Assembly: GCA_964017185.1 (NCBI GenBank)
Contig: OZ024879.1
Location: forward strand, 23,563,456 to 23,627,455
DNA: 64,000 nt
Direction of reading: 5' to 3'
Origin: Rugalucina vietnamica
Taxonomy: Eukaryota; Mollusca; Bivalvia; Lucinida; Lucinidae
Made by a program: the position numbers and the translations under genes. The notes beneath the pieces are model-generated. The model worked only from the letters and a program-made list of their open reading frames with translations. It was not told the DNA's origin and ran no database searches. This document shows positions 2,936 through 63,380 of this stretch, piece by piece. Positions within the stretch are counted from its first letter, which is position 1. Every line of letters begins with the position of its first letter.

Positions 2936-3249
2936 TGCAAACATACATAAGGCGCCAACAGCACAAAAATATTTTGATTACCAAGACATAAAACAAAAAG
3001 AACCACCACAGAAGTATCGACTTGGAACGATCAGTAACACAAAGTTACTGGCAAAAGTTATAGAGGTTGCAGTCTCTTCGACAAAATCGGCATAAGTCAC
3101 CAAACTCATTGTCACCAGTGACGAATCAGAAGCCTGGTGAGGGACATTGACGGAAACATCTAAAAGAGTATTTGGTGCTATGGAAACATCAGAACCAGTT
3201 GGTTAGATAGTCATGTTTTCCGCTCGATGTTTTTCAGCTGAACATTTTC

Positions 3250-3331
3250 AATGTTTAAAGCTCAAAAAATCTGTTTATGGCCTGGGCAAGTTTTCAGAAT
3301 GTTGAATGGACCAAAAACGGTTCTATCCTGT
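3250..3331 (-). mobile_element. pogo-type transposon fragment, 3' of the SINE insertion
   Basis: Closely matches 13603-13690, the C-terminal coding part of the pogo-like copy: AAAGCTCAAAAAATCT, GGGCAAGTTTTC, then TGGACCAAAAACGGTTCT. The match stops at about 3331, where SINE family 1 begins. It resumes on the far side of the tandem array at about 5255. This is the left half of a transposase ORF split by the SINE. Confidence 0.8.
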
Positions 3332-3672
3332 TTTGTTTTTGTTTTGTTTTCTTGTTACTCCCATGAATCAATTTCTGGTTATTCTTGGGAGGTCATTGTA
3401 CACTTCGGTGTGTTTGCAGGATGAGCCTACATGCATGAGGATAGAACCTGTGTAGGGATCTTTAACCTCCACAGGGGATGACTGTCCCGACACAGGGGGC
3501 CTCCAGTTAACGTCCCGATCCGAAGGACGGCGCACTGTATCATGTCATTCCTGCAAATGACACGAAGGGAAGCGTGTTCGGACCATCATATTTTCCTCGC
3601 GCCCGGTGGAGATCGAAGCCGGGACCTCTAGCACAAGAGGCCAGTGCGCTAACCACTCGGCTACCTCGCTTC
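3332..3672 (-). repeat. tRNA-derived SINE, family 1, copy A
   Basis: About 340 bp in minus orientation. On the minus strand the head carries a pol III A-box-like TAGCCGAGTGGTTAG and a B-box region diverged from GGTTCGATCC, preceded by a type II (Leu/Ser-like) tRNA pattern. The body follows with the ACAGTGCGCCGTCC and AATCAGAAATTG-like blocks shared with copies at 21656-21975 and 49268-49613. The head points into the tandem array, and the array monomer contains this head. Confidence 0.85.
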
Positions 3673-5282: not shown

Positions 5283-5745
5283 AGAAAGGAGAGTACTATT
5301 TTCATCCAATGCACTCTCTATGATGGCGAGAGTTGCATGAGAAGATTGGTTTTCAAATAGTAACAACTGCGGTCTGTTAGGACCACAGCTTCCAAAAAAC
5401 TTCATCAAACTACTTCTACCCAATGTCATCAGTGATCCAGCCTTACAGTACCTTTTGGTGCATCTGTTTTGCCTTTCGTGATAACAAGAGGTGGCAATGA
5501 GGCACCGGCGCCGTTTACACAAGCAATTAATATGCTATTACTTGATTTTGGGTTTGTTTAGTCTACCACAGATTTTGACCCTCTTTCTGTTACAAATTTT
5601 GGTTGGCTATGTTCAAAGTTTACACCCGTTTCGTCACAATTCCAAACTTCTTTTGCTGTCACCCCTAACTCAGATTTGACTTTTTTATGTCCGAAAATTA
5701 ATTGTTTACAACTCAAAGATGTAGCCTGCTCTCCTTTCGAAGTCT
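5255..5745 (-). pseudogene. pogo-type DDE transposase fragment (broken)
   Basis: The minus-strand frame gives SCGPNRPQLLLFENQSSHAT, then LAIIESALDENSTLLSIPSH. This is the central DDE block of pogo/Tigger-like transposases and is collinear with the copy at 13607-13966 (GPKRPQMLLIDGHSSHETLA). The expected catalytic Asp of LLIDGH is replaced (LLFENQ), and reading frames are interrupted further upstream. It is the right half of the ORF interrupted by the SINE and its tandem array. It is inactive. Confidence 0.8.
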
Positions 5746-31400: not shown

Positions 31401-32795
31401 ATGCTGCATCAGAATACCGAGTCATCCGAACTGCCGGGAATCTCGATTATTGAGATATGAGCCGCCTCGTGAGAAAACCAACAATGTGGTTTCCGAACAG
31501 GTCCAACACAAACCGGGCTGTACAAGCACAGAAGATGGCTAGAGACTGGAAATTTTGGATTTAGAAAGTAGAGGAATTGTACTATCCGTGTAGCGAAATC
31601 TAAGCCGCTGATCAGCTTCGCAGTTACTGCGAAGCTGATCTGCGCCTTTGTTTTCGCATATGCAGATTGTTTGTTTTCCCATGAGGCGGCTCATATTTTG
31701 TTATGGAATTGCATATCTTAAAGTTTCTTACTTTCATGGGAGAGCTCGGTGGTAGACCGTCGGACTCGAACCTAGAGGTTCTTGGTTCGGTCCTTTCTTG
31801 GGGCACCGGAGTGCTGGTTAATACCCAGGAAGCGGTCTCTCTGTGCCGACATGACTGAAAAATAGCTGAATGGGACGTTAAACATTAATTCAAACTTACT
31901 TTCTAGATGGGTAGTCATGGTATTGAAGCGGCTTGGGCCGGTGGGGAGCGAGGTAGGGAGGTGATTGATAGAGTTTTGCCGCTGGTGCCAAAGTTGTTGT
32001 CCCAGAGAGGGGTATTCTATCTTGTCATAATTAAAGAGAATAACGTGGGTGAGTGATGCCTCTATCTTGACGTTGAAGCATCGGATTCATTACTTTAATA
32101 TGAGCCTGCGCGTGAGAAAACCAACAATGTGTTTTGCGAACAGATCCGACGCAAACTGAGCTTTACAAGCACAGAAGAAGGGCGAAAGGTTGGAAATTTT
32201 GGATTCAAGTAGAAAGTAGAGGAACTGCACCATCTCTGTAGCGAAAACAAAGGCGCTGATCGGCTTCGCAGTTACTGCGAAGCTGATCTGCGCCTTAGGT
32301 TTCGCATAAGCAGATTGTTGGTTTTCCCATGCGGGGGCTCTTATATTCTTTATTTTCAACATTTAAAAGCTGAAGTTGTCATTTTAATAGCAATTGGTAG
32401 GTGAACATTTGAAATTGATTTTGTGGACATTGTCTGTGCATTTTTGTTCTACACGAACTTATTAACGATGTCTTGTTTCCAGATCGTATGATTTGTAAGT
32501 TTGTCTGTGCTTTGACGTCACAGTCAACAATTTTTTGATCATGACGAGAAAAGTTTTCTAGATATTAACCAGTACTGTGGAGAGTTAATGTTGTACTTAT
32601 GGCCACAACCCTGCACCAGAACGTCCAACTTCTCTCTCCGTAGTCCTAACCTCTGTTGCCACTAGGCTAACAATATTCCGTTTGTTTTCAGATGAGATAG
32701 AGAGTATTATGAGAAAGGAAGGTTTAAAGATGAATGTGGTTTTATCCAGAAGAGCTGGGCCAGAGTTTTTGTCAATTCTGCGGTTCCAAGGATGA
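25499..32795 (+). CDS. N6AMT1: HEMK2/N6AMT1 protein methyltransferase
   Basis: Six coding exons: 25499-25629, 27329-27415, 28462-28552, 28984-29067, 31907-32048 and 32692-32795. Every intron is GT-AG and phases are consistent, giving 212 residues (human 214). The family is a SAM-dependent methyltransferase that works with TRMT112 and methylates the GGQ glutamine of release factor eRF1; histone and DNA substrates have also been claimed. Visible signs: N-terminal IYEPAEDTFLLLDAL; SAM loop E50-IGSGSG-G56; CTDIN at 74-78, where the Asp contacts SAM ribose; catalytic NPPY at 121-124; SHGIEAAWAGG and FYLVIIKENN in the C-terminal half. No frame damage. Intron 4 is large and holds a sense-strand LINE and a MITE; the exon 5 acceptor lies 11 bp from a SINE. 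The start is chosen from the family-like N-terminus. Confidence 0.96.
25785..26330. repeat. Repeat block in N6AMT1 intron 1 with AAATAGGGAGAT words
   Basis: Between two direct copies of a roughly 55-bp block (25785-25840 and 26260-26315; AACCAGCAACAGCTAA, GGAAAAGCAGGCTC) lies an array, 26005-26200, of about eight near copies of AAATAGGGAGAT with uneven linkers. No coding function. The flanking direct blocks may be two insertions of one short repeat or a duplicated segment. Confidence 0.65.
26425..26610. repeat. Foldback repeat, copy 2 (inverted)
   Basis: TAGATTGTGGGTACACAAGG and ACTTACAATCTATGTTTTGG form the arms. Flanking text (GTGGGGTATATGGGGGTACA) matches the copy at 13330-13535 in reverse. 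Lies in N6AMT1 intron 1. Confidence 0.65.
27472..27514. repeat. (TTGA)n palindrome
   Basis: ATTGATTGATTGATGGGT, a 6-base centre (CATTAA), then its exact complement. Perfect hairpin of about 18 bp in N6AMT1 intron 2, 60 bp past exon 2. Confidence 0.85.
27562..28120. mobile_element. Short-word MITE, CGTACGG type
   Basis: About 560 bp with short inverted ends (ATTACATTTG / CAAATGTAAC). The interior is packed with CGTACG, ATCGTA and TCCGTA words in both orientations. No coding capacity. It sits in N6AMT1 intron 2 and resembles 18930-19645 in design but uses a different vocabulary. Confidence 0.65.
29310..31130 (+). mobile_element. LINE copy: RT C-terminal half with microsatellite tail
   Basis: A 459-codon open frame (29322-30701) carries CPTVADDMLLSSFSKKALEK. 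ADDM is the RT catalytic box, with Val where Tyr or Phe is usual. Then follow EYKHLGVICDKNMSIDN, SIVLPKALYGCELWSSLNKK, RAHRFCIKFMQSLP and, near the C-terminus, a Cys/His block CHICGENVVSITEHVLLFC. The 3' UTR ends at AATAAAATATCTATC and a (TATC)n run near 31130, typical of LINE 3' ends. It is 5'-truncated just before the catalytic box and inserted in sense orientation in N6AMT1 intron 4. The open frame suggests a fairly recent insertion. The start codon of the frame is not biological. Confidence 0.85.
31456..31695 (+). mobile_element. MITE-1 copy 2
   Basis: Ends TATGAGCCGCCTCGTGAGAA / TTTTCCCATGAGGCGGCTCA, internal palindrome around TTCGCAGTTACTGCGAAG. Lies in N6AMT1 intron 4, shortly after the LINE tail. 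Confidence 0.92.
31738..31895 (+). repeat. tRNA-derived SINE, family 2, copy 1
   Basis: The head reads GAGCTCGGTGGTAGACCGTC, ACTCGAACCTAGAGG, then TTGGTTCGGTCC (degraded B box). The body has TGCTGGTTAATACCCAGGAA and the tail GGGACGTTAAACATTAATTC. Its end is only 11 bp from the acceptor of N6AMT1 exon 5, so its tail contributes sequence close to that splice site. Inverted relatives lie at 32505-32660 and 35945-36166. Confidence 0.75.
32099..32345 (+). mobile_element. MITE-1 copy 3
   Basis: About 247 bp, TATGAGCCTGCGCGTGAGAA to CCCATGCGGGGGCTCTTATA. Internal GCGCTGATCGGCTTCGCAGT palindrome. In N6AMT1 intron 5, only 50 bp after exon 5. More diverged at the tips than copies 1 and 2. Confidence 0.9.
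32505..32660 (-). repeat. SINE family 2 fragment
   Basis: GACGTCACAGTCAACAATTT, then ATATTAACCAGTACTGTGGA and GTACTTATGGCCACAACCCT match 35970-36090 (GACGTCCCAGTCAACAATTT, TTTAACCAGTACTGTAGGGA). The tRNA head is missing or eroded. It ends about 30 bp before N6AMT1 exon 6. Confidence 0.65.
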
Positions 32796-35510: not shown

Positions 35511-35893
35511 TTAATAGTAACCATACTTCTTCCTGGGTTTGTATCCCCTTCTGTGGCCCCACATTCCACCTACACGGGGATAATTCAGTCTACCCCCTGT
35601 CCCCGCACCGAATGACGGGTCGAACCCACGTCTTATGATTGGGCGTCGTATGATCGGCCGAACGATGCGTGGGCGAATGATTGGTCGAACAATTCGACGA
35701 ATTATTGGTCGGTATATAGGTCTGACAATACGATTTATGATTGGTCGACGGATGATTGGTCGGACTACACGGTTGATGATTGGTCGTTGAATAACTGGAC
35801 GAACAATCTGAAATTAAAAAAAAAGAGTTATTATAGCACGTTCAGAGTCGCGCCTCGACAAGGTCTGCCACAAACGGGTCGGAAAATATTTCT

Positions 35894-35929
<36 letters not shown>

Positions 35930-38900
35930 GGAAAAAAACGTGAAAAATAGTAGATTTTTGTTTGTTTGTTTATCTTGAGGCTTGACGTCCCAGTCAACAA
36001 TTTTTCAGTCATGTCGGAACGGAGCCATCTCTTCCTGGGTTTAACCAGTACTGTAGGGAATTAATGTGTCATGCTCAAGGACACAACACGGTGATGCCTG
36101 TGGGGATCGAACCCCGGACCTCTCGATTCGAAGTCCGACGCTCTACCACTACTCCACCGCGCTCAAAGAAAAACAAAAAGAAATGTATTTTTGTCATAAA
36201 TTTAGAACGAAAGGAAGGGATTGTGCAGAGCCTGGAATAACCAAGTTCATGCCCGTTGTGTTCGGGTAAGACCGAGATAACGTCTGAAGGCGGTAAAACC
36301 AGATCATCATCATTAGCACGGAAACGTTAATCAGGAACGGGACAACCAACTTGAATTTCGTCCATATTAGTATTTTCTTAAATTAAACTGTCTACCTACC
36401 CTTTTTACGACGGGTCTGACAACAGGTCGAACAATAGGTCTGATCACCGGTCTCACTATCGTTGTTATATGGGACTTGTGTCTCATCTCCTTGCCTTTCA
36501 TACCGTGGTAGCCCATCCCTCCAACCGGCCCACCCAGCACAGGCCCTGCCCCCACCGGTCCCACTCCTCCGTCCATTATTGGTCCGTCCACAATGCCAAC
36601 TCCCGCACCGCCGACGATTCCCGCTCCGCCGACCACTCCTGCTCCCCCGACGACTGCAGGGCCACCGACAATTCCCGCGCCACCGACCACGCCCGCACCA
36701 CCGATCACGCCCGCACCACCGACTAAGCCCGCACCACCGACCAGCCCGACGTCTCCGTTACCGTCAAAACCACCGTTATCGATTCCGTTATCAGTGCCGA
36801 TGAAACCTCCTCCGTTACCGACAATGCCTCCGTTGCCGACAATGCCTCCTCCGTTGCCGACAATGCCTCCTCCGTTGCCAACAAAACCTCCGTTATCGAC
36901 AATTCCTCCTCCGTTGCCGACAAAACCCCCTCCGTTACCAACAACTCCTCCACCATTCCCGACGAAACCTCCGTTGCCGACAACTCCTCCATTCCCAACG
37001 AAACCATCGTTTCCGACAAAACCACCATCATTTCCGTTGAAACCACCATTTCCAATGAAACCACCCCCATTGCCGACAACGGCGCCCGCATTACCGACTA
37101 TACCGCCATTCCCTAAGACTCCACCGTTTCCTGCAAAAATATGAAATTAGAATTTATACTGTTTTAGCCAAGTAGAGTTTGATGGACAAATCAAGCAGCC
37201 CCTGGTCGCTTGGAATAGCGGAGAATTAAAACAGGTACAATTCAGAGAAGTATCTCGACTGAGATAAATATCAAACCGCAACATTAATTCGACGTTACGG
37301 CAAAGTATAACAAAGTTCAGACTTTTTTTTCGATGCCTGCTTATTTGGATCGGGAATAAAACTATGCCACTTGTGGTCTGTGCACTCATATATACAGTAT
37401 TAATTTCATTCAACATACTTAGGACCAGGTCTGCAGTTATGCAAGTTGTACCCATCTATGTATATTTTAATCGTCTAATTCTATATAATGAAGGCGTTTA
37501 ACTTCATTTTAACAGGAGTTTATTCAATTTAGTTCATCATTTTATATGCGTGTCAGAAGCGACCTAGGGAAAGTAGGGAAAGCCCAATCAGACAGTTATC
37601 TGACACGCACCTTCAGTTTAAGTTGTCGTTTTAAAATGATTCACTCATCTTAGCATATTTAATTGATTATAAAACCAAAACTGTAACTCAACATTGCACT
37701 CTGTTTTCATGTTTGAAAAATTTATTTATTTAAAAAGCTTAAAATCCCATTTTTAAATCATAACGTTTAAAAAGCACACACAAATCTTTCTATCAGTTTC
37801 CGTTGACTCACAACAAATATTTTAAGCTGAGTGCCTTAAGCACATATGCATTATTCTATCAATTTCAGAGATTTACTTATATCCTGTTTCCTTGACTTAT
37901 TTTAAATGTATGTATATATATATTGTACAAATTGTTAATAATTGTGTTCTATTCTTCAGTTGCAGAGGACCATATGTTAGATAAGTAATTCTATTTGCCT
38001 AATATGTCATCCTCTTAAAATAAAGAATGTATTATTGTTATAACAAATTATATTCAAAGTAAACCTTACCAACAAATCCTGCGCCACCGTTGCCATTGAC
38101 AACCCCACCTACGCCGCCGACTCCTAGGTCGTCGAAAGTACCAAGATCTAAAATTAATATGAACGATCATAAGTATTCTTTTAATTAAAATGCGTGTATA
38201 ATAAAAAGATGGATTCCGACAGCATTTGAAATGACGGAAAGCAAAATATAATGAAAGTGTTTTGTTTGTTGTAAACGAATCTAATTATTGTTGGAAAAGG
38301 TTTGTGTGTCTTACATATCTGCAAATACTATACCGTTTTGTCCATTGACCACCCCCGCGCCGACTGCAGGTCCGGAGAATCCAGGATCCACCACCCCGGG
38401 GCCGCCTCCGACTCCACCGACACCGAAGTCCGGATCCACCGGCACGCCACCCTGACCAAAACCTGGGTCGACAACTCCACCGTGTCCGCCGTGCCCATGC
38501 CCTATATGACCACCGTGACCTTTTGCCACACCCAACGAACCTATGTATGGAACGAAAAAGATGCTTTAACTATTTTAATATATAACTTCTATTCCTTGTA
38601 TCAAAATCAGTAAACCTGTGTGGTACTTTCATTCATTCTATCTGTCTTTTCTGTCCGTCCGCATGTCCAGTTCATTCATTCATTCATTCTTTCTTTCTTT
38701 CTTTTTTTCTGTCTTTCCGTCATTATGGACAATATTGCAATTGACGGTTATATCTAAAATGATTGTGTGGTATAGTCAGCACTCGTCAAGTTTTTATCTT
38801 TATCTGACTGCTGGATGCACACTTCACCATGTCCACTTCACCGTTGCTTCCATTGTCAAATCGGCTACTGTTACCTGGTCCCGAGGACGAGGTTACAAAA

Positions 38901-39202
38901 CTTTTTTCATGCTCACCTCAGCTGAGACTAAAATTATCCTGCTGATAAATGTTAAAATGCCAACAATATTTATTGTTGTCATTTTAACATTTATTAGCAG
39001 CAAAAATTACTAGAGTTTGTGACCTAAACCTGAAATTTCAATTTATTTATGATATTTCAGTAATTAAGAGCAATTTAAAGTTCATGCTCAGCTGAGTTGA
39101 GCATGAAAAGAGTTTAACAACCTCTGTACCTGGTTACTCACCTTGGAAGTTCAAGGTCACCACTAGGAAGCAAAGGCACACGGACGTTGTTGTAACCTCC
39201 AT
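35511..39202 (-). CDS. Secreted Gly-rich protein with basic Arg-Pro-Ile repeat tail
   Basis: Five coding exons on the minus strand: 39202-39142, 38540-38334, 38147-38070, 37130-36400 and 35807-35511. All introns are GT-AG and phases agree, giving 457 residues. Residues 1-20 (MEVTTTSVCLCFLVVTLNFQ) form a signal peptide. Exon 2 is Gly/His-rich (GHGGHIGHGHGGHGG), then has VDPGF repeats. Exon 4 has about 20 units of the GNGGG(I/F)VG type, then VVGGAG repeats, then a basic turn (MKGKEMRHKSH). The last 100 residues repeat IVRPII / IRRPII and end RRGYKPRKKYGYY. No cysteine follows the signal region. The architecture recalls mollusc shell-matrix or other extracellular structural proteins (shematrin-like Gly-rich body, basic tail), but I recognise no specific family. 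Assigning it to shell, byssus or mucus is inference. Confidence 0.85.
35890..35926. repeat. Long A tract
   Basis: About 37 A residues directly beside a partial MITE-1-like piece (AAGGTCTGCCACAAACGGGT at about 35860). In intron 4 of the glycine-rich gene. Confidence 0.9.
35945..36166 (-). repeat. tRNA-derived SINE, family 2, copy 2
   Basis: Minus orientation, about 220 bp. The head reads GAGCGCGGTGGAGTAGTGGT, AGAGCGTCGGACTTCGAATC, GGTTCGATCCCC (clear B box). The body contains the complement of CAGTCAACAATTTTTCAG. Lies in the last intron of the glycine-rich gene, in the same orientation as that gene. The acceptor stem does not pair, so it is not a tRNA gene. Confidence 0.8.
38877..39133. mobile_element. 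MITE-2 copy 1, next to a splice donor
   Basis: Inverted ends CCTGGTCCCGAGG / CCTCTGTACCTGG, with inner arms TTTTTTCATGCTCACCTCAG / CTGAGTTGAGCATGAAAAGA and a central palindrome (TGTTAAAATGCCAACAATAT). A second copy in opposite orientation lies at 58925-59163. It occupies intron 1 of the glycine-rich gene, starting about 8 bases after its exon 1 donor GTGAGTAA. TTA on both sides may be its target duplication. Confidence 0.85.
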
Positions 39203-39384
39203 ATTCTGTTGGAAAAAAACAAATGACACATGTACTTACTCATAGAAATAAATCTTAGTATGCAGAACCGCTTTTGAACGGTCAGTTGCGAATTTACCGT
39301 TTGGGTTAAATTGTCTGTTGTGAGTCAAAATAGAATTCCTTTTTAAATGAGCTTTGTAGCTCAACTAAGGAGTATGTTAAACAA

Positions 39385-39527: not shown

Positions 39528-39552
39528 CTCAGTCAGGGCGAGCGGTCAATTA
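39528..39552 (-). other. 5' leader exon of the glycine-rich gene (approximate)
   Basis: Non-coding text ending CGCCCTGACTGAG before GTAAGA. The start is placed about 30 bp downstream of the TATA box and is an estimate. Confidence 0.45.
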
Positions 39553-39578
39553 CAATAATTCGTATTTTGTTGCTGCGT

Positions 39579-39586
39579 TATATATA
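39579..39586 (-). promoter_or_regulatory. TATA box of the glycine-rich gene
   Basis: TATATATA on the minus strand in the context GACTATATATAACGC, about 50 bp upstream of the leader-exon donor. A strong TATA box fits high, tissue-specific expression of an extracellular protein gene. Confidence 0.65.
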
Positions 39587-41499: not shown

Positions 41500-43855
41500 T
41501 ATCTATCTTCTGATACTGAGTCGATCAATTTCTGATCATCACCTCAGGTGTGGGGTGGGTGGCTAAATTTAGAATTTAGTCAAGGGAAAATTAAACATTT
41601 GGGGTGGACCATTAAAACTATTTACAAGATATAGATGAGAGACATACTAAAACGCATGCCTCTGGGCCAATGATTTAAATAGAAGCCTTAAATTCCTCAA
41701 TGGTCTTAGATAGGACCACTGAAGAAGGGAGACTATTCCAAACCGGAATAGTTCTGGGGAAAAATGAATTTTTCAGAGCATCACTATAGGCAAATGGTCT
41801 TGTGTATTGTGATTCATGTGATGCCCGAGTATGCCTTAGATTGGGTGCCGGGGTCAGGTATTTGTCTTTATCAAGAGACACTGTACCGGAGTGTATCTTG
41901 TAGAAGAAGGTTAAGGAGGACCGCTCCCTGCGAGACTCCAGGGATGGCCACTCAAGTTCGTCTAGCATTTCACCGACGCTACTGGTGTTCCTCCATCGCC
42001 TGCAGGTCCACCGGGCAGCAGTCCTCTGCACCTTCTCCACCATCTCAATCTGAGTTTCATGATAGGGATGCCAAATAGGAGCTGCATACTCAAGTTGAGG
42101 CCGAACCAATGTTTTGTATGCAACTTCCTTAGTATGCCTAGGTGCCAGTGCCAAATTGCGCCGAAGAAAACCCAAAGTCTTAGTTGCCTTGCATGTAATT
42201 TCAGAAATGTGTTGACCCCAATCAAGATCATCTGTGATAGTTAAACCGAGGTATTTAGCGGACTGAACCTGTTCTAATGTTTGCTGATGCAGTGTGTAAT
42301 TGAAATCTATATGCCTGCTTGGATGTAGCCGCGTCACCCTTATTGAATGACATTTGCTGACATTGAATTTCATTTGCCAATCCATTTCCCATTTGGCCAA
42401 GCTATTCAGGTCATCTTGTAAAATTTGACAATCCAATGGTGACTTGACATTTCTGTATAAAACACAATCATCAGCAAATAGCCGAACAGATGACCTGATG
42501 TTGTCAGGAAGATCATTAATGAAAATAAGAAATAGGACCGGTCCTAAGACCGATCCTTGTGGGACACCAGAAAGAACCGGGACTGGGTCTGAGGCACGGC
42601 CATCTAATACCACTTTTTGAGAGCGCTCAGAGAGCCACGAGTCGATCCACTTATCGCTTATGTGTAGATCCTCTAATCCCGTAGAAGTCAAGTTTGTATA
42701 ATAACCTTTTATGTGGGACCTTGTCAAAGGCCTTAGCGAAATCCATGACAATCACATCCGTCTGCCTGTGGCCACGACCCACTGCTCGGTCCAGATTACT
42801 AACCAAATCATGATAAAACTGAACTAACTGGGTTTCGCAAGACCTTTGACTTCGGAACCCATGCTGACAGTCAGCAAGAATGTTTTCAAGAGCCAAGTGT
42901 TTGTTTATGTTGCTGACTATTATATGCTCTAGAGTTTTGCAACAGATACAAGTAAGCGACACCGGTCGATAATTAGCTGCATCGTATTTCTCACCTTTCT
43001 TAAATACCGGGGCTACATTTGCCTGTCGCCAATCGTCTGGTACAGCACCCTGAGCAAGCGACTCATTGAAGATATAGGTCAGTACAGGAGCAATTTCAGA
43101 ACTACATGTACATTCCTTCAACACCCTAGCACTCAGGCCATCTGGCCCAGGCGCCTTATGTATATTCAAGTTATTCAACAGTTTAATGACCCCATTGGGG
43201 TCAACTGTAATTTCACCCATAGCGGTGAAAGGACTTGTGCCTTTGGAGGTGATTTCATCATCTGATTCGCGAGTGAAGGCTGACTGAAACTGCCTATTAC
43301 AAATATTAGCCTTATCCAAAGTGTCAGTCTTCAAGATACCATTTTCTCTAAGAGTATTGATCCCAGACGCGTCTTTCTTTAGGGACTTGACAAATGACCA
43401 AAACTTTTTTGCCTTTTCATTTTTTCGGGGACAATCGGGATCAGGGTTATCATTTTCAAAGGAGAAGATATTGGTAATATGCTTCCAATATGCATCTCTA
43501 ATGCTCTTTTGAACATGTGCTCTGAACCGTTTGTAATGGTTCTTAATGTCAGGGCTGCTTGACTTGCGAGCACGAAAGTAAAGTTTATCACGTTTCCTTA
43601 TCAAGCGTTTGATCGAGCTATCGATCCATGGTAAGCTATATTTTGTCTTGGTCATTTTTGATGGAATAAACCTTTCAATAGCCGAGAGAACCTCCGACTT
43701 AAAACTGACCCACATGTCATTGACTGACACCTGACTATGGTCAGTTGAAAGGAACGAATCCCTATAGCGCGCTAGATGGTCATGCAGACCGTCCATATCC
43801 GCTCGTTTATATAGGAAAATCTTACGCGGGGCCTGCTGAATCCGTTTAGCCTTTA
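41500..43855 (-). mobile_element. LINE, RT domain nearly intact with one frameshift
   Basis: Minus strand, two long frames: 43796-42651 (381 codons) and 42751-41675 (358 codons). The first holds a linker (FIPSKMTKTKYSLPWIDSSI), NYRPVSLTCICCKTLEHIIV, QHGFRSQRSCETQLVQF and DVIVMDFAKAFDKVPHKRLL (RT motif A Asp). The second holds [29 protein letters not shown] (catalytic FADD near residue 92 of that frame), and the C-terminal RTIPVWNSLPSSVV. The frames overlap; one frameshift near 42680 separates motif A from the rest. The endonuclease domain is absent, so the copy is 5'-truncated. Age moderate to young, given one lesion in about 2.1 kb. Confidence 0.9.
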
Positions 43856-43861
43856 TGTCAT

Positions 43862-43985
43862 ATTCAAGGAATAGCTGCTCACTCGTTCTTGCATGGTAAG
43901 TGTCATTTTAGTTTTTTCCCACCCCTCGGTTTATGGAGTGGGAATTTCTTTCTGATTACGCCATTTCCTGATCATTGCCTACCTG
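43862..43985 (+). repeat. ACTGAGTGGCC repeat copy
   Basis: AATAGCTGCTCACTCGTTCT, CCCACCCCTCGGTTTATGGA, CCATTTCCTGATCATTGCCT. It joins the 5' end of the preceding LINE copy to the next LINE fragment. Confidence 0.6.
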
Positions 43986-45136: not shown

Positions 45137-48100
45137 ATGGAGGGTTTACCTTTCTTACCTGGCAATACGTTTGGCAACCCAACAGTAAGTTCTTACGAGT
45201 GGTTTTGAATGTTTCATTCTCTGAGAAAAATGCAGTTTTCATAAATTGAATAGACATAGACATAGAAACTTTATTTAACGTCGAATATGATTAACTACAA
45301 CATAAGCCCAGTAGGGCTTTTATTTCGACAAACATATGTAAAATAATTAAAAGTAACAGAGTATATCACAGCATGCACATTTATATAAACACGATTATTT
45401 ACAAGATGAATCACAGATAATAGAAAGTACTTTTATATCACGGCAAGCAAATTGTTGTAATTTTTAAAATTAATATAATAATAACACATTATCATATAGT
45501 TATTTGAAATGTTTATAGAGACAAAGATGCCTGGATCCCAATGGTTACCTTTGCTCGAAAACGAAAACTTAAAATAGGTGCAAGTCAAAATAAAATTAAA
45601 TTTGGGGTCAGCAAGGAGACCACAAAGGGTAGGCTCCCACAGTAGCTCCTTACAGACAAGGACCAAAAAGGGGAGGAGGGAGAAATCTAAAAAGAATTTA
45701 ATCAAAGGAAACTGTGGGACAAAGCATCCCAGGTCTCAGCAACCTGTAAAATAAGAAAATGATACATAAAAATTTAGGGTTTTGACATAACTGAATGAAA
45801 ATGGAAAGAACATAACACATGTATGTAAAAAATGAACAAAGAATAAAATAAAACTGAACAAAGAATTTTCAAAACAAGAAATCAGGCAGAACAAGAAGGA
45901 CACTTACAGTTGAGTCCGTCCCAGGCCCGGAGCAGCCTCCGGAACTGAGGATAAGATTCTGCCAATCTCAACTCATTTGGGAGGCTGTTCCAGATCCGGG
46001 CCGCCTCATACCGGAAGCTCCTTAAGCCGTACCTGGTACTGTTTACACGAGGGATCTGTGCCTGCTTCTCAGATCTGAAATCATAGGGAGAGGACTTAAG
46101 ACTTATCAAGTCATGCAAATAGGATGGAGCTATGTTGTTAACAATTTTAAAAACTTCCCCAGCCATAAGTTTCATTCTGCTGATATGCAGAGGTAGTACT
46201 CCATTTTGTTGTAGAAGATCCGGCAGAGGAGACTCAAAGTCATCACAGATGAATCTGAGGGCCCTCTCCTGGATCTTCTCCATCTTATTTGCACTTGACT
46301 GATTGCAAAAATGCCATACTATTGGACAATGATTAAAATTTGACATTATAAAAGATTTATAAATCATTAATTTGCCTTGTTTAGTTAAAAACTTTCCTAT
46401 GCGCTTAAGAACAGCTAGCTGCTGAGATGCTTTAGTACAAATTTGAGATATATGGTCCTTAAAATTCAATTGAACATCTAAAGTAACACCTAGCAGAGAA
46501 ACCTTGTCCTCACATGTAATCTTAGTGTTACCCAGTTGAAATGATGTAATAGCATCAAAAGTTCTTTTACCAACACAAATAGCCTGAAACTTATCAGGAT
46601 TTGCTTTCATGAGATTATTTTCAAACCACTGAATCAATGAAAGACTTTCCTTGACTAACACTTGATGCAGAATTTCTATTTTTTTGTGAATATAAGCAAG
46701 GGTGTTATCATCTGCATAATTATATAGTGAACATTTTTCAACAATATAAAATATGTCGTTGATGAATACATTAAAAAGTAAGGGGCCTAATATAGAACCC
46801 TGAGGGACCCCCTTAGTGAGGTTTTCCCAATCACTAGTGTTAGATCCCATTCTAATCTGCTGACTCCTGTCACTTAAATAACTTTCAATAAGTTTCACTG
46901 CATCTTGAGACACTCCATATGCTTGAAGTTTTGCCAACAGTAAGTTATGAGGAAGACAGTCAAATGCCTTGGACAAATCCATGAGTATTGCAGCAACATA
47001 CTCATGTTTGTCCAAGGCACTCCGCCAGTCTTCAAGTAGGCGTAGCAGGGTAGTTTGGCATCCATAGCCTTTCCTAAAGGCTGCTAAAAAAGGATTGAAC
47101 ATATCATCTAGATACTCAGATAACTGCTCATGTATGACTCTTTCAAAGATTTTTGAAGTAGTGGGCAGTATGCTAACAGGTCTATAATTTTCTTTGTTTA
47201 AAGAATCTTTCTTTTTATACAGAGGTATAACTTGTGCATTTTTGAGCCTACTGGGAAAAATACCCTTAGCAAATGACAAATTTGTAAGACTGGACACAGC
47301 ATGGCTGAGACTTGGAGCACATGCCTTTAAAAGTTTTGCTGAAATATTGTCTACACCAGTGGACTTTTTGACATTTAACTTTGAGAAAATCTTTCTAGTT
47401 TCATTTTCAGAAATGGGCCGAAATGAGAATTTTTTATCACTAAAATGACCATTTTTAAGAATATTTTGAATGCTGGGATGTGTGGAGAAGTCTCTGTCAT
47501 ACTGAGTACAGTCCTTACCTATGTCCTTTGCCACATTAACAAAATATGAATTGAAAACATTACACACCTCCTTCTGATCTGAGATAATTTTATCATTTTC
47601 TGAAAGAATGATTTCTGATCCACCACCAGACCCCTTCTTAGATAGAAAAGGTTTGATAGTGGGCCAGAAATCTTTAGATTTAGGGCCGCCAGAACAACGC
47701 TCAAAAAAGTAATGCCTCATAGACTGTTTTTTCAATTTTGTAACTGCATTTCTTTGTTTTCTGTAATTATCCCAGTTCAGACCAGATGGGCATTTTTTAT
47801 ATTTGTTGAAAAGCATTTTTTTCTTAAAGACAGCTCGCCTCAGATCACCATTTATAAAGGCTGGTTTTTTGGGTTTTGAAATTCTCTCTTTTATTGGTGC
47901 ATGTTGATTTATGACATCATTCAGGAGCCACTCATGTGCCCAGTAGATGTCATCAACATCCTCAAACACATGAGCTACATGAAATGGCACCTGGCTGATG
48001 TCATCGTTGAAACACTTTTCATCAAAATTTTTATAACTTCTATATTTAATTTTTTGTTTCTCAACCTTGGGGGCAGCACCCTTGACCAGCACACCTATCA

Positions 48101-51100
48101 TGTTGTGCCAGTCACTGATGCCACACCCAAAGTTGATAGGGTTAAAACAAAATTGTGATTTATTGGTGAGGACCACATCCACAAGGGAAGGTGAACAGTT
48201 TTTCATAAAGCATGTTGGGTCCTTAATCAGATTTTTAAAATCAAATATATCACATATATCAGTAAGAGTTTCAGATTTTGTCTTATCCAGACAGTCATAA
48301 TTAAGATCCCCTATGAGTATCATATTGTCAAAATGTATTGAGATCTTATCAAGTCCTTTTGTAAGGATATCAGTAAATATACTATCCTTAACTGATGGGG
48401 GTCTATATGCCCCTATAATGGCCCACTTTCGACTGTTTATTTGAATGTCAAGGACGATAGTTTCTATGGGTAGGTCAAGTTCAAGGTCATGTCGCCTTCT
48501 TGCAGGTAAACTGGATCTCACATATGCTATGAGACCACCACCAGATGAATTTCTGTCATTCCGAAAAGTTTTGTAATTTGGAATGTTAAATAAATTAATA
48601 TTGAAGGTGCTGTCTAACTTAGTTTCGGCAAAGAAGCACACATCTGTAAGTTTGTCATATAGTATGTCACTAATTTCTGCCAGTTTGTAACGCAAGCTGT
48701 TTATATTTAAGTATGACACAATGACATTGTTTTTGTGTTTATGCCTTACTTTCTACGATATACGATTTTACGATTTCTTGGAATTCCAACATAAGTAAAG
48801 GTACCCCCATGTTTATCCCTGATGTCAAATGTCACATGGAGTTGCGCACTTCATTTATTTGACATTAGCAGAGGGCTTTCCATAAGAAATATTGTATTTG
48901 AATAGATAATTGTTGAAGCTAGTCTTGTTTCTAGCTGATTGGTAAGAAAAATATGGTTTACAGCAGCCCAATGAATAGATAATTAGGACAATGCAATACA
49001 CTAGGTAAACAAAATGACTGCCATGTATGTTTTACTTAAACTTTCACCGTCTGTTCTGTTCATGGATGCTCAATCTATGATATTTTGCATCTTTGGCTTC
49101 TATAATTATGTTAATTGATAAAATGTTACTAACAAACGATTGTAAACTTTCATGCATTAGTTCCGAGACACTAAAATATGACATGCGCAAGTCCATGTGC
49201 CGCGCAACTCCAGGAGACTCAACTGTATTTGAGAAAATTCTATCTATCTATCTATCTCTATATATCGCGGACATGTTTTGTTTTGTTTTCTTGTTACTCC
49301 CATCAATCAATTTCTGATTATTCTTGGGAGGTGTACATTGTACACTCCAGTGTGTTTGCAGGATGAGCCTACATGCATGAAGATAGAACCTGTGTAGGGA
49401 TCTTTAACCTGCACAAGGGATGACTGTCCCTGCACGGGGGGCCTCCAGTTAACGTCCCGATCCGAAGGACGGCGCACTGTATCATGTCATTCCTGCAAAT
49501 GACACGAAGGGAAGCGTGTTCGGACCAACAAATTTTCCTCTCCGCTGGCGAGGATCGAACCCGGGACCTCTAGCACAAGAAGCCAGTGCGCTAACCACTC
49601 GGCTACCTCGCGACATTCTAGGCAGGTCTGCGCAACGTCTGTTAGTATCAGACAGAAAAAGAAAGGGTAAAGAAAGATTTAAAAGCATTAATAAGGGGAG
49701 GATAAAAACAGATGATAGGTTAAAATAGTTCCGTAATTCCGTAATTAAGCCACAATTAACGGCTATAGAGGCACTCGGTATGTTCTCTTCTTAGTATTTG
49801 ACATCTCGCGTATAATCTTGCGGTAAGATTAGCTAAAATCAGCTGTAGTTAAGATTAGCTAAAATCAGATAAAAACAACTGAATTGGGATCTAAGGGCGA
49901 GAGTGTTGCAGCTTGCAGACTGCGGTCTTAAAGACCTCGATGCTCTGCAAGCATGCAACAGACTCGGGAGGGCATTCCATTGTACTATTGCGAGGGGGAA
50001 GAAGGAGTATTTGTAATAATCTGTAGAAGTAGAGACCTGCCTGAAGGTCATGGAGTGACAGTATCTAGATATTCTGTTACTGTACTGTATATAGTCCGGA
50101 AGAGGTACAGCTACGAGGCCATGAACAACTTTGAACTCCATATCCCACCTGGTGTCCCATCTTGATAGTAAGTCCAAGTCATTTTGTAGTATTGAACCAT
50201 GGTCTTCGCTTTCTATCGTGAGATACAAGGCTGTATCATCAGCAAACAAACGCACCTGGGAGGAGACCTCATCAGGCAAGTCATTGATGTAGATGAGGAA
50301 CAGAATAGGTCCAAGGACAGAACCTTGGGGTATGCCTGATGTTACTGGTACAGATTCTGATTCCTCCCCATCAAATACTACCTGTTGTGATCTGCTCCCA
50401 AGAAAAGCTCGGACCAAGTCCAACACATGCCCACGTATGCCATACTGATGCAGCTTCCAGAGGAGTTTACTGTGATTTACTTTGTCAAAAGCTTTAGAAA
50501 AGTCTAGTAGACTGTAGTATGATGTCTGTCTGTTTTCCCGCACTCACATTCCTCGCAAGGTCCTCTATGAGCATGATGATGTCCAGGGGCTGGTTTGGTA
50601 GATTCTTAGTATTCATTGTACTTCTCCCGTAGGTTCAAAATATAAAGACGAACGCCTGTAATTATATGAAATAATATAATTATGAATATTCCAAATATAA
50701 CACAGAAAAACGAACTTGTTCAAAAGTATCGTAAATGGCAAATGCCAAGTACAAAGTACATAAAATGACATAAAGTGACATATCTGGAATGGCTTTGGTC
50801 TACCTTGCAGCTAACCTTAAATTGCACAGACATTGACAATTTACCATGACACAGCTAACTTATTTACAACATAACATCAAATCTTGTTAATAATAATTAT
50901 CAAATATTACACTTCTTAATGGTGAAATGACACTAAAGATGCTGCAGCTTATCAGTTGTAAAGGATGGCTTAAAACAACATACCTGTAATTATATGAAAT
51001 AATATAATTATGAATATTCCAAATATAACACAGAAAAACGAACTTGTTCAAAAGTATCGTAAATGGCAAATCGGTTGAGACACAATCAGGGTTGCCTTTA

Positions 51101-54100
51101 CTACCTTGGTCATGTTATGCATCTGTAATTCAGTGTGATATTATCCAATACCTAATGCTTTTATTCTATTATAACACTGGGATAATAAGCTTTCTGGCGA
51201 TATATAATGATACCATATTGTGTACAATATTTTGCGTCAGGGAGAGATTATATGCTAAAAAAACACTGTTTTTCACATGTCATGATGTTGCACTTTTATT
51301 TTGGGTGTTTTGTAAACATGTTTGCTTTAGTATTCATGAATGAAATATGTTGCATATGGCTCTAGAACTAAGGAGACATATGCCCCCTGTAATATACTTT
51401 TTACGGCTTTGAATTTGGACTAAAATTAATGAAAATATGGAGAATGAAGTGAAACTGTTCATTTGTAGGATTTTAAGATTTTCTTGGTGTCTACAGTTCA
51501 CATGCTGAAATAATTGGACAAATGCTTTAAATAGTTTTATTTTGTATTAAGTCTTTCTTGATGAAGCCAAATGACAGATTAGAATCAACAAAAATTGAAA
51601 TTAACTTCTCAGAGAAGAGCAATGATTTTCAAAAAAAAAGTCATTTTTATGTAGAGTCCGTAGCCCCTAGGTTTGAAATGATATTAAAAGATCAGGTTCC
51701 GATTAAATGAGTTGATATGGCCTGATTGTTTTTCAGACTGTGGTCTAGTACAACCCATCAAAATGATATCTCCAGACATTATTAAGGACAGAAGATATAG
51801 CACAATTATTTTTAGCTCACCTGAGCCGAAGGCTCATAGGTGAGCTTATAGTATACCCATGCTCCGGCGTCCGTCCGTCCGTCCGTCGTCCGTCGTCCGT
51901 CGTCCGTCGTCCACAATTTCAAAGATCTTCTTCTCTGAAACCGCTGGGCCGATTGTTCTCATATTACACATACACCATCTACAAGTAGGGGGAAAGAATA
52001 ATTGTGTTTTTTGCTTTGATCGGATAAGGACTCTGGTTGCTATGGCAACTTATGCTTCCCATAGACTTATAATGGAAAAAAGTGAAAATTGCAAGTATTT
52101 GTTGTCTTGTTGCAGATATTTGAATTTTGTTTTTGCAGAAATGTTTATTGAGTAGTCCTCTACGTTTCATGTGACTTTTGTCCTAATCCTTTATTTTGAT
52201 TGGTTGCAGGGGCCCCATATAGGGCAAAATTTCGAAAAACATTCAAAAATCTTCTTCTCAGAAACTGTCAAGGGGATGAAGCCTGTACTTTGTATACATG
52301 TTCCTGACAGTGACCTCTACATAATTTGTGTTTTTTATTCCAGGCGGATAAGAACTCTGGTTGCTATGGCAACTTAAAGTTTCCATAGACTTATAATGCG
52401 AAAAGTGGAAATTGGCTATTTTTCCGCTAAAATTGCAGACATTTGAATTTTGTTTTTGCAGAAATGTTTATTGAGTAGTCCTCTAAGTTTCATGTGACTT
52501 TTGTCCTAATCCTTTATTTTGATTGGTTGCAGGGGCCCCATATAGGGCAAAATTTCGAAAAACATTTAAAAATCTTCTTCTCAAAAACTGTCAAGGGGAT
52601 TAAGCCTATACTTTGTATACATGTTCCTGACAGTGGCCTCTACATAATTTGTGTTTTTTATTCCAAATGGATAAGAACTCTGGTTGCTATGGCAACTTAA
52701 AGTTTCCATAGACTTATAATGGGAAAAGTGGAAATTGGCTATTTTTCCGCTAAAATTGCAGACATTTGAATTTTGTTTTTGCAGAAATGTTTATTGAGTA
52801 GTGTTTGACATTTCTTGTGAGTTATGTCCTAATCCTTTATTTTGATTGGTTGCTGGGGCCCCATAAAGGGCAAAATTTTGAAAAAAAAAAAACATTCAAA
52901 AATCTTCTTCTCAGAAACTGTCAAGTGGATGAATCCTGTACTTTGTATACATGTTCCTGACAGTAGCCTCTACATAATTTGTGTTTTTTATTCCAGTCGG
53001 ATAAGAACTCTGGTTGCTATGGTAACTTTAAGTTTCCATAGACTTATAATGGGAAAAGTGGAAATTAGCTATTTTTTGAAAACTATTGCAGCCTGAGATC
53101 TGAAAAGTGGTAGATGCAAACAACTAATGGATTAGATGAAGGTATATGATTAATTTAGGTCAAGGTCATCTCTTGACCTTGGCCGGTCTGTCGTCCATAC
53201 ACACTTTTCAAAGATTTTTTTCTCTGAAACCACTTGGCCAATCAAAGCCAAATTTTATATGAAGCATCTATATGAAGTGGGAATCAATGTGTATATAAAT
53301 AATCCAGGTCACTTGACCAAGATGGCCGCCATGTCCATATATGGTAAAAACCCTTAAAATATCTTCTTCTCCAGAACTGGTTAACCGATTTCAACGAAAC
53401 TTTGCATGAAGTATGGGTGACTCAAGTATTACAATGTATATATAAATCATGACCCTGTGGTGACCTTGACCGATTTTATGGCAAGGTCAACATAGGTCGT
53501 CAATGCATTTGAATGGGGAAAACTTTTAAAATGTCTTTTAAAGTGAAAGTCTTGCAGGAAATGGGCAGTAGGACTGAATATTAATGATTCTGAAAAAAAA
53601 ATGGACCCCAGGGTCTCATCTGCTTTTAAAATGTTATTTGAAGAGGAACACCAGCAGGAGATTGGCAAATGGACAGAATATTGGTTATTCAGAAAAAAGA
53701 AAATGACCCAAGGGCTTCATCTGCCCCTGCACTGGGGTTAAATACCATAATATTCAAATATGTTTATTGGTATATGAAGCAGATCTCAGGTGAGCGTTTA
53801 CAGGACCATTGGTCCTCTGGTTTTCTATGGCCTGTAGAGTCCGTAGCCCCATGTTAAGAGACACCCTAGAAATAAAATGTGTGTTGCAGTCAAGGTTTCC
53901 TTCAATTTTTCATATGCAACCACACATGTTACATTGTATTAAATTAACTTCACCATGGAACAATGACTTATGTAGGCTGCATGTGATCTTATTTAAGCAG
54001 CCCAAAACACTGGTTTGAAGCTCCTTTTCTGAACTATTCCCATTACCCACTATGGTGAAATTTGAAAAACGCGAGAGCCAAAAGAATTATTACTGGAATA

Positions 54101-57100
54101 TAAACCTGATAGCTCATACGTTATTATAAACCAAGAAAAATGAAAATATAAAGAGGTTACATTTTTGCCTCAAGTGCAACACAAAAGGCAACCCTGATTG
54201 TGTCTCAGCCGAAATGCAAAGAACCGTTACATGCGTGAACGCTTGTTAGTATCAAGTATTACATAACAATACCACTAAAACTACCTATCTACCTATACTG
54301 GCCAAGACTAACTACGCTACCTAAGTATGCAATACCTACTAATTTCCTGTAGTGCCATATACAATTTCCTGTAAAATATCTGGAATTCTGCGCCATAATA
54401 TAGGACATAAAGGGGACGTAAAGGCCAATAAAGGACGATAAATAAACACTAAAATAGATATAGATTTTAGAATTTACTGACCCTATGACAATGAGCTGGG
54501 TCTGGCATGACCACTTTTCTCTGAAGCCATGCTGTAGGTCATACAAGATACCATGCCCATCAAGATGCTTAACTATATTAGATGCTACCTATATATATGT
54601 TCAAGCACCTTGCAAAGGATGCAAGTGAGGGAAATTGGTCTGTAATTGGCTGCCAGAGATGTGTCACCTTTTTTGAAGACAGGCATGACGTTGGCTGTTA
54701 GCCATTCTGCCGGGAACTTGCCTGTCTGTAATGATCTATCAAAGATGATTTTGATGATCGGAGCAATCTCTTCTCTGAGCTCTCTAAGCAAAAGGGGTTT
54801 CAGCCTGTCTGGTCCAGCAGCCTTACCAGGTATGAGTAAATTGTATGAGTCTCAGTCATGTCAGCTTTACTGCAAGTAGCCCTGTTCACGGGCCATAATT
54901 GTTTGTTTGATTGGGACTGATGCGCTTTAAGGGATGCTAAATATCTGGTGATCAATTTCTGACTTTTTCCTCAGAAGCTGTGAAATTGTGACCTGCTAAA
55001 GGCCACAACCAATGGGAGCCAAGGCTGAGGATCAAACCTGGGACCGGAGTCCTACACTGGACACCTGTGTTAGTCCTCTCCACTCTTTTCTGTCTATATA
55101 AGATCGCCACCCGCTATTAAAAGTGCATTCTAGCCGTTGGATTTGCTCCATTATATCCCAGACAACCATTTGTGAGTTTCTGTCATATTTTGAATGCCGC
55201 CAATATGGACATGTTATTTAATTTTCTATAATTACAGAAGCTGGTGCTTTCTTCACAACAATGGTATTATGATTGTCAATACCCTGACTAGGCTCCACTC
55301 CAAGTTTCTGAGTGACAATAATTGTTATTCTTCGCCATACTTTTATTTGATCTTTGTCACTTGTACTTGTAGAACCAGGTGGCATATTGAAATTATGTCA
55401 CCCTTGTCAAGATGGTACAAACCTTGACTGCCATATTATATCCTCAGTCTCTCCACACTACTCACTTAGTTCATGTTCCAAGTTGAAAACAATCTTGAAA
55501 AATTGTTGACTGGGGCACTAAGCAGTAATACACTTTATTTCTTTCTCATTGCAGCGTTCCAAATTTCACAGAAGTCACTCTTTAGGCTACAAGAATGGTT
55601 ATGCTCTCCAACAACAAAAGACAGTTGGAATAGGCGGTGAGCCCATCAACTATAACCAGCTATCCGAACAAGAGCTTGACGAATTGGCAAACTTCAACCC
55701 AACCTTGACCTATGGTCAAGCTAGGGAGGCACCACCAGAGGACTTTGTACCAGGTCACGTGGCTTGGGATAAAAAGGTTTTTGACTTTTGTCAAAATTAT
55801 TGTGTTAGCTTTGGAATAAATGACTACTGTCAGTAAGCAATGATTGAATGTTTTAAATGAGCCACTGCATAAGAAAACCATCAAATTACTTGGGGGAAAA
55901 CAAAGGCGCAGATCAGCTTCACGATAGCCGCGAAGCTGATCAGCACCTTTGTTTTCGCTACAGGGATAGTACAATCCCTCTTCTTCTTAAATACAAAATT
56001 TCAAGCCTCTAACCATCTTCTGTGACTGTACAGCCCGGTTTGTGTCGGACTTGGTCTGAACCCAAATTGTTGGATTTCTCACGCACAGGCTCAAATAGAA
56101 TGGCTGTTACTTGTTAGCCTATTATAATGTTGTTTCTTTGGGTAGATTTAAATTATTTTTGCAACATGAATGGGGTCCGAGTAAAAAAATTATAAAAGAC
56201 AAATACATGACATGAACAGTTTTAATAAAACCATTTTCTTACATCATAGAAGTTTACTAAGAAAGTCACTGGTAATACACATGACCAAAAAGGACAATGT
56301 ATGAAAAAATTGCTGTTGTTTTTTTTCTATTTTAAAATCACCTGAAATTTATTTATTTATTTTAACATTACTGAAATTCATCAGATGTCAAACCAGATGA
56401 TTTTTTTGACAGTTTCTTAACAAAATCATCAATTTCAGGTGCTGAGATTCAATGCCTACTTCAAACAGACCGTCCATGAATCCCAGAATGAATATTTCCG
56501 AGTTCGACCCGTTGACATTTACTATTATCTAGAGGATGATAGCATTGCAGTGATTGAGCCTCATGTCGAGAACTGTGGTATGCCACAAGGTAGGAGCTAA
56601 ATATGAAATATATAAATTCTGTGGTTGACTGGTTGTACAAAATTCAACATTTAAGCATCTAGCTACTGGAAACCAACTTAATTGTCTTGAGTGATTTAGT
56701 TTCACAATGTTTGTGAGGAACCAATAATCACGGAAATGAATAGCCGCAAACACATTGGCTTAAATGAAAAATCCTGAATAGTTTTGGGGTTTGTGACTAA
56801 AAATGAAAAATCCTGACACAGTTTTGGGGTTTGAGTTTCAGTGTTACATTAGAATGTATAAGTTTGTGCTTGTTGATCTCTTAATAATCTGCCAATTATT
56901 AGCCAAGGGATCAATTGTACACTAAAAATCTTGATTCAACCAAGCTGTTTGAACTTTTTCTACCTGCTACTATTTTCCTGGGGTTTAGCATGATAACTTT
57001 GAGTTGTACGAGTTCGCTTATGCAATTGCTTACTAAATGTTTCCAGGAAAACTGATCAAGCGTCAGAGACTGCCGAAGAATGACCAAGGCGATCACTGGC

Positions 57101-63059: not shown

Positions 63060-63380
63060 TGGGGCCCCCGCCCATTGGGGCCTAAAGAAATAAATGGGCT
63101 GCTTGTGCCTCCAGGCAAAGCTTGTTCGCTGCTGACTGACCATCTGATTACTGGTTAACCGTTCAGGTCTGAGCTTGCCCAGGAAAAGTGGTTTCAAGTC
63201 AAACCGTTCACACATGTAAGCCTTTATGGCTTTGTTGAATGGTTATATTTTAAGCACTTGTTGGATGTCATGACATCCTCATTTTGGGTAAAAGTCCCAT
63301 AAAGTGGAGGCAACATCCCGACATGACCTGAGCTGTTGACTGGGACGTAAAACATCAATTCAAACAAACAAACAAATTGA
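63060..63380 (+). repeat. SINE-like repeat, family 3, copy 2
   Basis: GGGCTGCTTGTGCCTCCAGG, ACCATCTGATTACTGGTTAA, GGGTAAAAGTCCCATAAAGT, tail GACTGGGACGTAAAACATCA, then ATTCAAACAAACAAACAAA. Collinear with 1262-1612. Lies in the EFHC1 intron after exon 7. Confidence 0.7.

Follow-up and report, generated by a model that had tools for sequence, protein, structure and literature searches.

A Rugalucina vietnamica gene for a predicted secreted protein with an acidic Gly-rich body and a basic Arg-Pro-Ile/Val tail

Comparable shell proteins and a lucinid gene

In their original description, the shematrins of pearl oysters reportedly have Gly-rich repeats in which at least two Gly precede a hydrophobic residue. 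The passages of the cited papers that are compared here describe their basic C-termini as RKKKY, RRKKY or RRRKY (PMC11358866) and place five Pinctada shematrin genes in tandem on two P. fucata scaffolds, with the family being described as unique to the P. fucata lineage (PMC4759782). In the zebra mussel, six shematrin-like transcripts rank with the most mantle-specific and most strongly expressed ones; they encode basic, Gly-rich proteins that cannot be aligned to the Pinctada sequences (PMC9210306). The KRMPs combine a basic, Lys-rich region containing 6 Cys with a C-terminal Gly/Tyr region (PMC3191542, PMC4498902); in KRMP-3, chitin is bound by the Gly/Tyr region, and the basic one has an effect on CaCO3 (PMC4498902). 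A linking role between acid-soluble proteins and hydrophobic framework proteins has been proposed for the KRMPs (PMC3120837). Much of a shell-forming secretome is made up of proteins that lack known relatives, and such secretomes change rapidly in evolution (PMC4897951). Here we analyse a gene on the minus strand of a 64,000-nt stretch of the genome of the bivalve Rugalucina vietnamica (OZ024879.1, positions 23,563,456 to 23,627,455; C11:23563456-23627455 in our numbering), which as a whole is termed the window. The gene is real and protein-coding and has no relative in the collections searched. Its product, which joins an acidic Gly-rich body to a very basic Arg-Pro-Ile/Val tail, would work most like shematrins and KRMPs while falling outside the exact definition of either.

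Gene structure and coding constraint

The gene is complete, with a TATA box, a non-coding leader exon, five coding exons, a stop codon and an AATAAA signal (Table 1). A single open frame runs through all five coding exons, from the ATG at 39202 to the end of the stop codon at 35511, and yields a product of 457 residues. The five introns, comprising the leader intron (the first, 322 nt) and four between coding exons, are GT-AG throughout, with 11 to 15 pyrimidines in the 17 positions of their acceptor tracts; the four that separate coding exons have phases 1, 1, 1 and 0. In this sequence-based model, all structural elements of the original prediction hold, namely the extent (35511-39202), the strand, the five coding exons, the leader exon, the TATA box and the poly(A) signal.

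Table 1. Elements of the gene and of its product in window coordinates
Feature	Position	Strand	Remarks
TATA box TATATATA	39579..39586	-	consensus match only; 58 nt before the leader donor
Non-coding leader exon	39528..39556	-	donor GAG/GTAAGATA after 39528; 5' end placed ~30 nt past the TATA box
Coding exon 1	39142..39205	-	ATG 3 nt in; hydrophobic signal segment MEVTTTSVCLCFLVVTLNFQ; phase-1 donor
Coding exon 2	38334..38540	-	His/Gly segment GHGGHIGHGHGGHGG, then V-D-P-G-F and Gly-Val repeats
Coding exon 3	38070..38147	-	DLGTFDDLGVGGVGGVVNGNGGAGFV
Coding exon 4	36400..37130	-	GNGG(G)(I/V/F)V repeats, GGAG(V/I)V repeats, first RP(I/V)(I/V) repeats
GN array	36739..37130	-	residues 116-246, inside coding exon 4
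GGAG(V/I/L)V hexapeptide (GA) array	36595..36738	-	residues 247-294
RP(I/V) repeats, first part	36400..36459	-	residues 340-359; dibasic KR end at the exon junction
Coding exon 5	35511..35807	-	residues 360-457 and stop; 27 K/R, 1 D/E, pI 12.0
RP(I/V) repeats, second part	35628..35807	-	residues 360-419; five units of 9-13 residues, e.g. IVRPIIRRPIIRR
C-terminal Tyr/Lys end	35514..35549	-	RGYKPRKKYGYY
Poly(A) signal AATAAA	35378..35383	-	127 nt past the stop

Because a motif-based codon count is biased, it was replaced by a test on DNA only, in which the DNA was aligned to itself without gaps and without use of the protein, at a stricter and a looser setting. In the coding sequence (CDS), self-alignment at the stricter setting found every one of the 1209 aligned nt at an offset that is a multiple of three, and the CDS mismatch rates at codon positions 1, 2 and 3 were 0.113, 0.061 and 0.365. 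The intron controls at this setting gave three short segments in intron 4 (592 nt) and none in intron 3 (939 nt). Because the tail by itself gave one segment of 29 nt at the stricter setting, its repeat signal rests on the looser scan, where all aligned nt (1271/1271) of a 249-nt tail stretch were at offsets divisible by three; 200 mononucleotide shuffles averaged 53 aligned nt and never exceeded 162. Mismatch rates at the three codon positions in the looser scan were 0.30, 0.21 and 0.57 for the tail and, for in-frame offsets only, 0.206, 0.224 and 0.564 for the GN array and 0.184, 0.039 and 0.542 for the GA array. The offsets are exclusively in frame and mismatches are in excess at third positions; therefore, the repeats have diverged with their protein pattern retained, and both repeat blocks are under coding constraint. 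In the 80-residue tail core, Arg is encoded by all of its six codons and Pro by all of its four, and because the order of Arg and Pro holds despite this full variety, the protein pattern was kept while the codons drifted.

Low-complexity arrays can be open in several frames, and the plus strand opposite exon 4 is open for 210 codons. Moreover, open length alone is weak evidence for coding, as 520 of the 18,202 window positions tested (gene included) open a 297-nt frame. These points would fit a simple-sequence expansion that is open by chance and holds no functional gene. However, the third-codon-position bias is seen in the GN, GA and RP arrays alike, the offsets are only multiples of three, and five GT-AG introns in register are accompanied by promoter and poly(A) signals. 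We rejected a non-coding expansion because of the in-frame offsets and the third-position pattern, and consider the absence of a functional gene exceedingly improbable.

Retention of intron 4 would make the chain end, at window 36367-36400 on the minus strand, in ...VVKRVGRQFNLRKY, a shematrin-like xRKY end, without the tail encoded by the last exon; neither AATAAA nor ATTAAA was found in this intron. Intron 4 also contains an insert at 35895-36180 that resembles a short interspersed element (SINE) and adjoins a run of 32 A. By blastn, its segment 35950-36180 has seven more partial matches in the window, for example at 31749-31878 and 63334-63376. The likeness of the insert to a tRNA was noted by eye and was reported by neither ARAGORN nor Rfam.

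Composition, probable role and alternatives

The protein (44 kDa) starts with a putative signal peptide, as judged by hydropathy and the (-3,-1) rule. The N-terminal hydrophobic segment reaches a best 11-residue mean hydropathy of 2.75, with no positive residue ahead of the hydrophobic stretch, and 5 of 17 tested cut positions, Ala26 included, pass the rule. We take Ala26 to be the preferred cut, after which the mature N-terminus would be Lys-Gly-His, presumably a copper-binding ATCUN start, which we regard as a lead only. The body (residues 21-325, 305 residues) consists of 44.3% Gly, 3.6% Pro and a single Tyr; it had been predicted to be neutral, but with 1 Lys/Arg against 16 Asp/Glu and an isoelectric point (pI) of 4.05 it is instead mildly acidic. 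The whole protein contains 14 GNGG motifs and only 2 G-x-N triplets, Tyr amounts to 7 of 457 residues (1.5%), and there is no Cys past residue 20.

The tail (residues 326-457, 132 residues) is of opposite charge, with 37 Lys/Arg, 2 Asp/Glu, a net charge of +35 and a pI of 12.0, and it is through the tail alone that residues 21-457 as a whole are basic (pI 11.28). A basic tail of roughly 100 residues had been proposed; its strongly cationic nature is borne out, but it exceeds one exon, since its first RP repeats end exon 4. Within the 80-residue core (24 Arg, 23 Ile, 14 Val, 14 Pro and 5 others), every Pro is preceded by Arg (14/14), and 13 of the 14 are followed by Ile or Val. Tail units such as IVRPIIRRPIIRR begin right at the boundary between exons 4 and 5. 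The last 12 residues, RGYKPRKKYGYY, form a terminal Tyr/Lys cluster that holds 4 of the 7 Tyr; this was reached by 0.09% of 20,000 tail shuffles, for a motif that was picked post hoc.

No Pfam-A family matched the full protein or the tail at E up to 0.1, and a sequence search of the PDB gave no match for the tail at E up to 10 or for exon 4 at E up to 0.01. The tail pattern was matched by 43 stretches in IMG/VR and by 234 in a prokaryote genome collection, none of which was confirmed, in searches that reach close relatives only. The tail query for Pfam, PDB, IMG/VR, the prokaryote collection and the species' own genome carried two extra residues (FQ) from the end of intron 4. A search of the open-access literature, outside which most subscription mollusc-shell literature lies, for RPII-type strings and for arginine-proline-isoleucine wording returned nothing apparently related among the matches listed, as judged by title and start of abstract. 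The claim that no named family has this tail is thus uncontradicted in Pfam, PDB, IMG/VR, the prokaryote genomes and the own genome, which is the scope in which it stands.

Like shematrins, the protein is basic overall and of low complexity, has hydrophobic-containing Gly-rich repeats (GNGGGIV and GGAGVV arrays) and a basic C-terminal end with Tyr, and would be secreted and lineage-specific. Unlike shematrins, it carries an Arg-Pro-Ile/Val tail of 118-132 residues in place of a terminal pentapeptide, its body is acidic and Asn-rich rather than Tyr-rich, and no paralogue was found within 60 kb. Exact shematrin membership was rejected because the chain ends PRKKYGYY, with RKKY three residues short of the end; of 20,000 tail shuffles, 0.9% had three Arg/Lys followed by Tyr in the final 12 residues, and 11.5% had them at any position. 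With KRMPs the protein shares an arrangement of two blocks, one basic and one Gly-rich, and the KRMPs are likewise thought to link soluble matrix with framework. KRMP membership was also rejected: the basic block is rich in Arg rather than Lys, the block order is reversed, and there is no Cys in the mature chain; the body, moreover, is Tyr-poor. The Gly-X-Asn domain of nacrein is another case of Gly/Asn repeats in a shell protein (PMC4498902), but here Pfam detects no carbonic anhydrase domain, and the few G-x-N triplets contrast with the GNGG motifs. The giant-clam shell protein Tcr_618259, compared by description only, is rich in Gly and Arg and has a GI-rich region and a C-terminal poly-Asp stretch (PMC8217771).

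With moderate confidence, we favour a secreted two-block extracellular matrix protein that is made by the mantle, resides in the organic framework of the shell or in the periostracum and acts as a linker. That the protein is structural and extracellular, and that acidic matrix or mineral could be bound by its basic tail, had already been suggested and is kept as the best-supported reading. Gene anatomy, charge split and coding constraint are established; we infer tissue, location, partners and cross-linking. As a silk-like framework, the Gly/Asn/Val-rich body would remain flexible and associate with itself, possibly along chitin. In the +35 tail, Arg-Pro recurs every 4-5 residues between pairs of Ile/Val; this tail would bind polyanions, for which acidic matrix proteins, sulfated polysaccharide and carbonate-bearing mineral surfaces are candidates, and condensation with the acidic body is possible. 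The chain would be fixed by tyrosinase-type tanning of its terminal GYKPRKKYGYY. Because the tail would bind polyanions or mineral, the body would form framework and the end would be fixed, the protein would join the soluble acidic matrix to the insoluble framework.

We count in support of this linker the complete gene with its single open frame, the third-position divergence of both blocks, their pI values, the absence of Cys past residue 20, the Arg-Pro pattern of the tail core, the terminal Tyr cluster and the KRMP and zebra-mussel precedents. To these we add 13 stretches with tyrosinase domains in the own genome (two of them in seemingly one open frame), among which hemocyanin units could be included, as well as at least one other Gly-rich multi-exon gene without a detectable tail, which is described below. 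Several points weigh against it. Tissue and location are read from composition, the body with its single Tyr is unlike the GY-rich regions that bind chitin, and no paralogue was found in the window or within 60 kb on each side, in contrast to the tandem Pinctada shematrins. More tentatively, the tail may be a new polyanion- or mineral-binding module that arose in one lineage when a short IVRP unit expanded and that became joined to an acidic, silk-like Gly/Asn block, giving a charge diblock that would self-condense at the secretion site before tanning; we hold this to be possible rather than probable. Should the tail indeed bind polyanions or carbonate, the simplicity of its grammar (Ile/Val pair, Arg, Pro) would make it an easily synthesised material module.

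The GGAGVVGGAGIV and GNGGGIVG repeats, which we take to be elastin-like in composition, and the strongly cationic tail would also suit an elastomeric or mucus-type extracellular protein of vessel wall, ligament or pedal mucus, in which the Gly-Val body is elastic and the tail anchors to sulfated glycans. The low Pro content of the body argues against this, and location lends it no support; we regard it as improbable.

The opposite charges of body and tail follow the same logic as dreissenid byssal proteins, and the protein could instead be a byssal or other adhesive protein of foot or mucus glands, with the two blocks coacervating on secretion and being set by Tyr/Lys cross-links. In the passages compared, quagga Dbfp5 has C-terminal acidic repeats G(Q/X)GNVVG(E/Z)Q, the two ends of several quagga byssal proteins are opposed in pI, and Dbfp13 has a very basic, Arg/Pro-containing N-terminus of pI 13 (PMC6474901); the best listed homologue of a zebra-mussel byssogenesis array clone is shematrin-4 (PMC2894042). 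Dbfp5, Dbfp9 and Dbfp13 resemble the protein in their Gly-Asn-Val or Gly-Asn repeats (Dbfp5, Dbfp9), opposite-pI ends and basic Arg/Pro stretch (Dbfp13). They differ from it in size and in Tyr and Cys content, and no RP(I/V) array occurs in the descriptions compared. The quagga byssal proteins are 4.3 to 21.8 kDa and as a group abound in Pro, Gly and Tyr and contain significant Cys (PMC6474901), in contrast to the 44 kDa, 1.5% Tyr and lack of Cys past residue 20 seen here. Because of the dreissenid precedents, we treat an adhesive role as a serious, if rather unlikely, alternative to the shell-matrix linker.

A dibasic KR at residues 358-359 lies exactly at the exon 4/5 junction, ahead of the tail. 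The C-terminal 98 residues of a cationic Pro/Arg antimicrobial precursor could be freed there and enter or disrupt microbes, with the acidic Gly-rich part serving as pro-region. The tail core contains 17.5% Pro (14/80, compared with 12.9% in the 132-residue tail), which is inside the 14-49% given for natural proline-rich antimicrobial peptides (PrAMPs) (PMC11678341). The myticalins of Mytilus similarly have a cationic Pro/Arg/Tyr region beside an anionic region across a dibasic site, and their first exon is 5' untranslated only and followed by an intron of 303 or 340 bp just before the ATG (PMC5577615), close to the 322 nt found here. In the parts of that paper compared, however, the myticalin block order is the reverse of the one seen here; furthermore, the search of the own genome yielded no second tail copy. 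Because the repetitive Gly-rich body of 305 residues is large for a pro-region, the tail core contains no PRP motif (which only some PrAMPs have) and no RX(K/R)R furin site was found, the antimicrobial reading is weakened, and we judge it to be improbable as well.

An unusual build had been ascribed to the protein. The overall plan is less unusual than that, being known from shematrins, KRMPs and quagga byssal proteins; because a Gly-rich body with a basic end is already known among shell proteins, the surprise is moderate. Because shell secretomes evolve fast and mostly lack known relatives, this clean gene, with protein-level constraint visible in both of its repeat blocks, is a suitable case in which to examine the origin of new matrix proteins.

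Copy number and genomic surroundings

The gene is apparently single-copy in the own genome (1,089,854,562 bases, 47 contigs). The protein search of this genome scores only the best first-look candidates, and an absence of copies is not proof. It returned the self-match only for the tail exon (4 first-look candidates), the last 38 residues (1 candidate) and exon 2 (1 candidate). Exon 4 likewise gave only its self-match, in a search that overlooked the Gly-rich gene described below. Because the own-genome search misses some low-complexity similarity, a single copy is best supported for the tail and exon 2, and is unproven. In the window, tblastn with four parts of the protein gave 74 hits in total, of which all those outside the gene had E values of 0.33 or worse; 60 kb on each side contained hits only at E 0.15 or worse. 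A scan of these flanks for open stretches of at least 30 residues with at least 22% Gly lists one in the left flank and three in the right, and such repeats occur in none of them.

The GNGG pattern at the DNA level is not enriched genome-wide (544 matches compared with 585 in the reversed control). Among the matches listed of the 544, a cluster of four pointed to a second locus, L009 (C2:62696000-62705999), in which positions 778-4958 of the minus strand hold a second Gly-rich multi-exon gene with GGGAIGGGAIGG repeats (GGGAIGG) and phase-1 exon borders, as read by eye. The three Gly-rich parts of the studied protein match this locus by tblastn with best E values of 6e-11 to 1e-21, obtained with composition correction off and therefore carrying little information on kinship. 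The Arg-Pro-Ile tail was not detected in these 10 kb (best E 0.84).

The window also contains transposon-like and repeat sequences. Open frames with reverse-transcriptase matches lie on the minus strand at 42654-43907 and 45885-48752, the latter also matching Exo_endo_phos and hence being like a long interspersed element (LINE). The sole ARAGORN call in the window, a tRNA-Lys(ctt) at 49541-49613 on the minus strand, falls inside an apparent dispersed repeat and has no Rfam match at gathering scores. Two dispersed repeat peptides, apparently the two strands of one element, occur at seven places (6134, 31686, 32334, 55962, 59690, 59787 and 63749), and satellite-like tandem arrays occupy 3643-5285 (units of 27-198 bp), 51998-53076 (323 bp) and 61133-62459 (190/380 bp).

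On the plus strand, Pfam detects DM10 domains at 58549-58836 and 60255-60701. We take the gene at 58549-60701 to be of EFHC type; it perhaps begins at 55522, where the stretch 55522-55833 has no Pfam match, and continues to about 65400. A similar open frame lies at 65020-65400 in the right flank. Further into the right flank, at 84491-85414 in window numbering (L018), an open frame reads like the start of exostosin-1.

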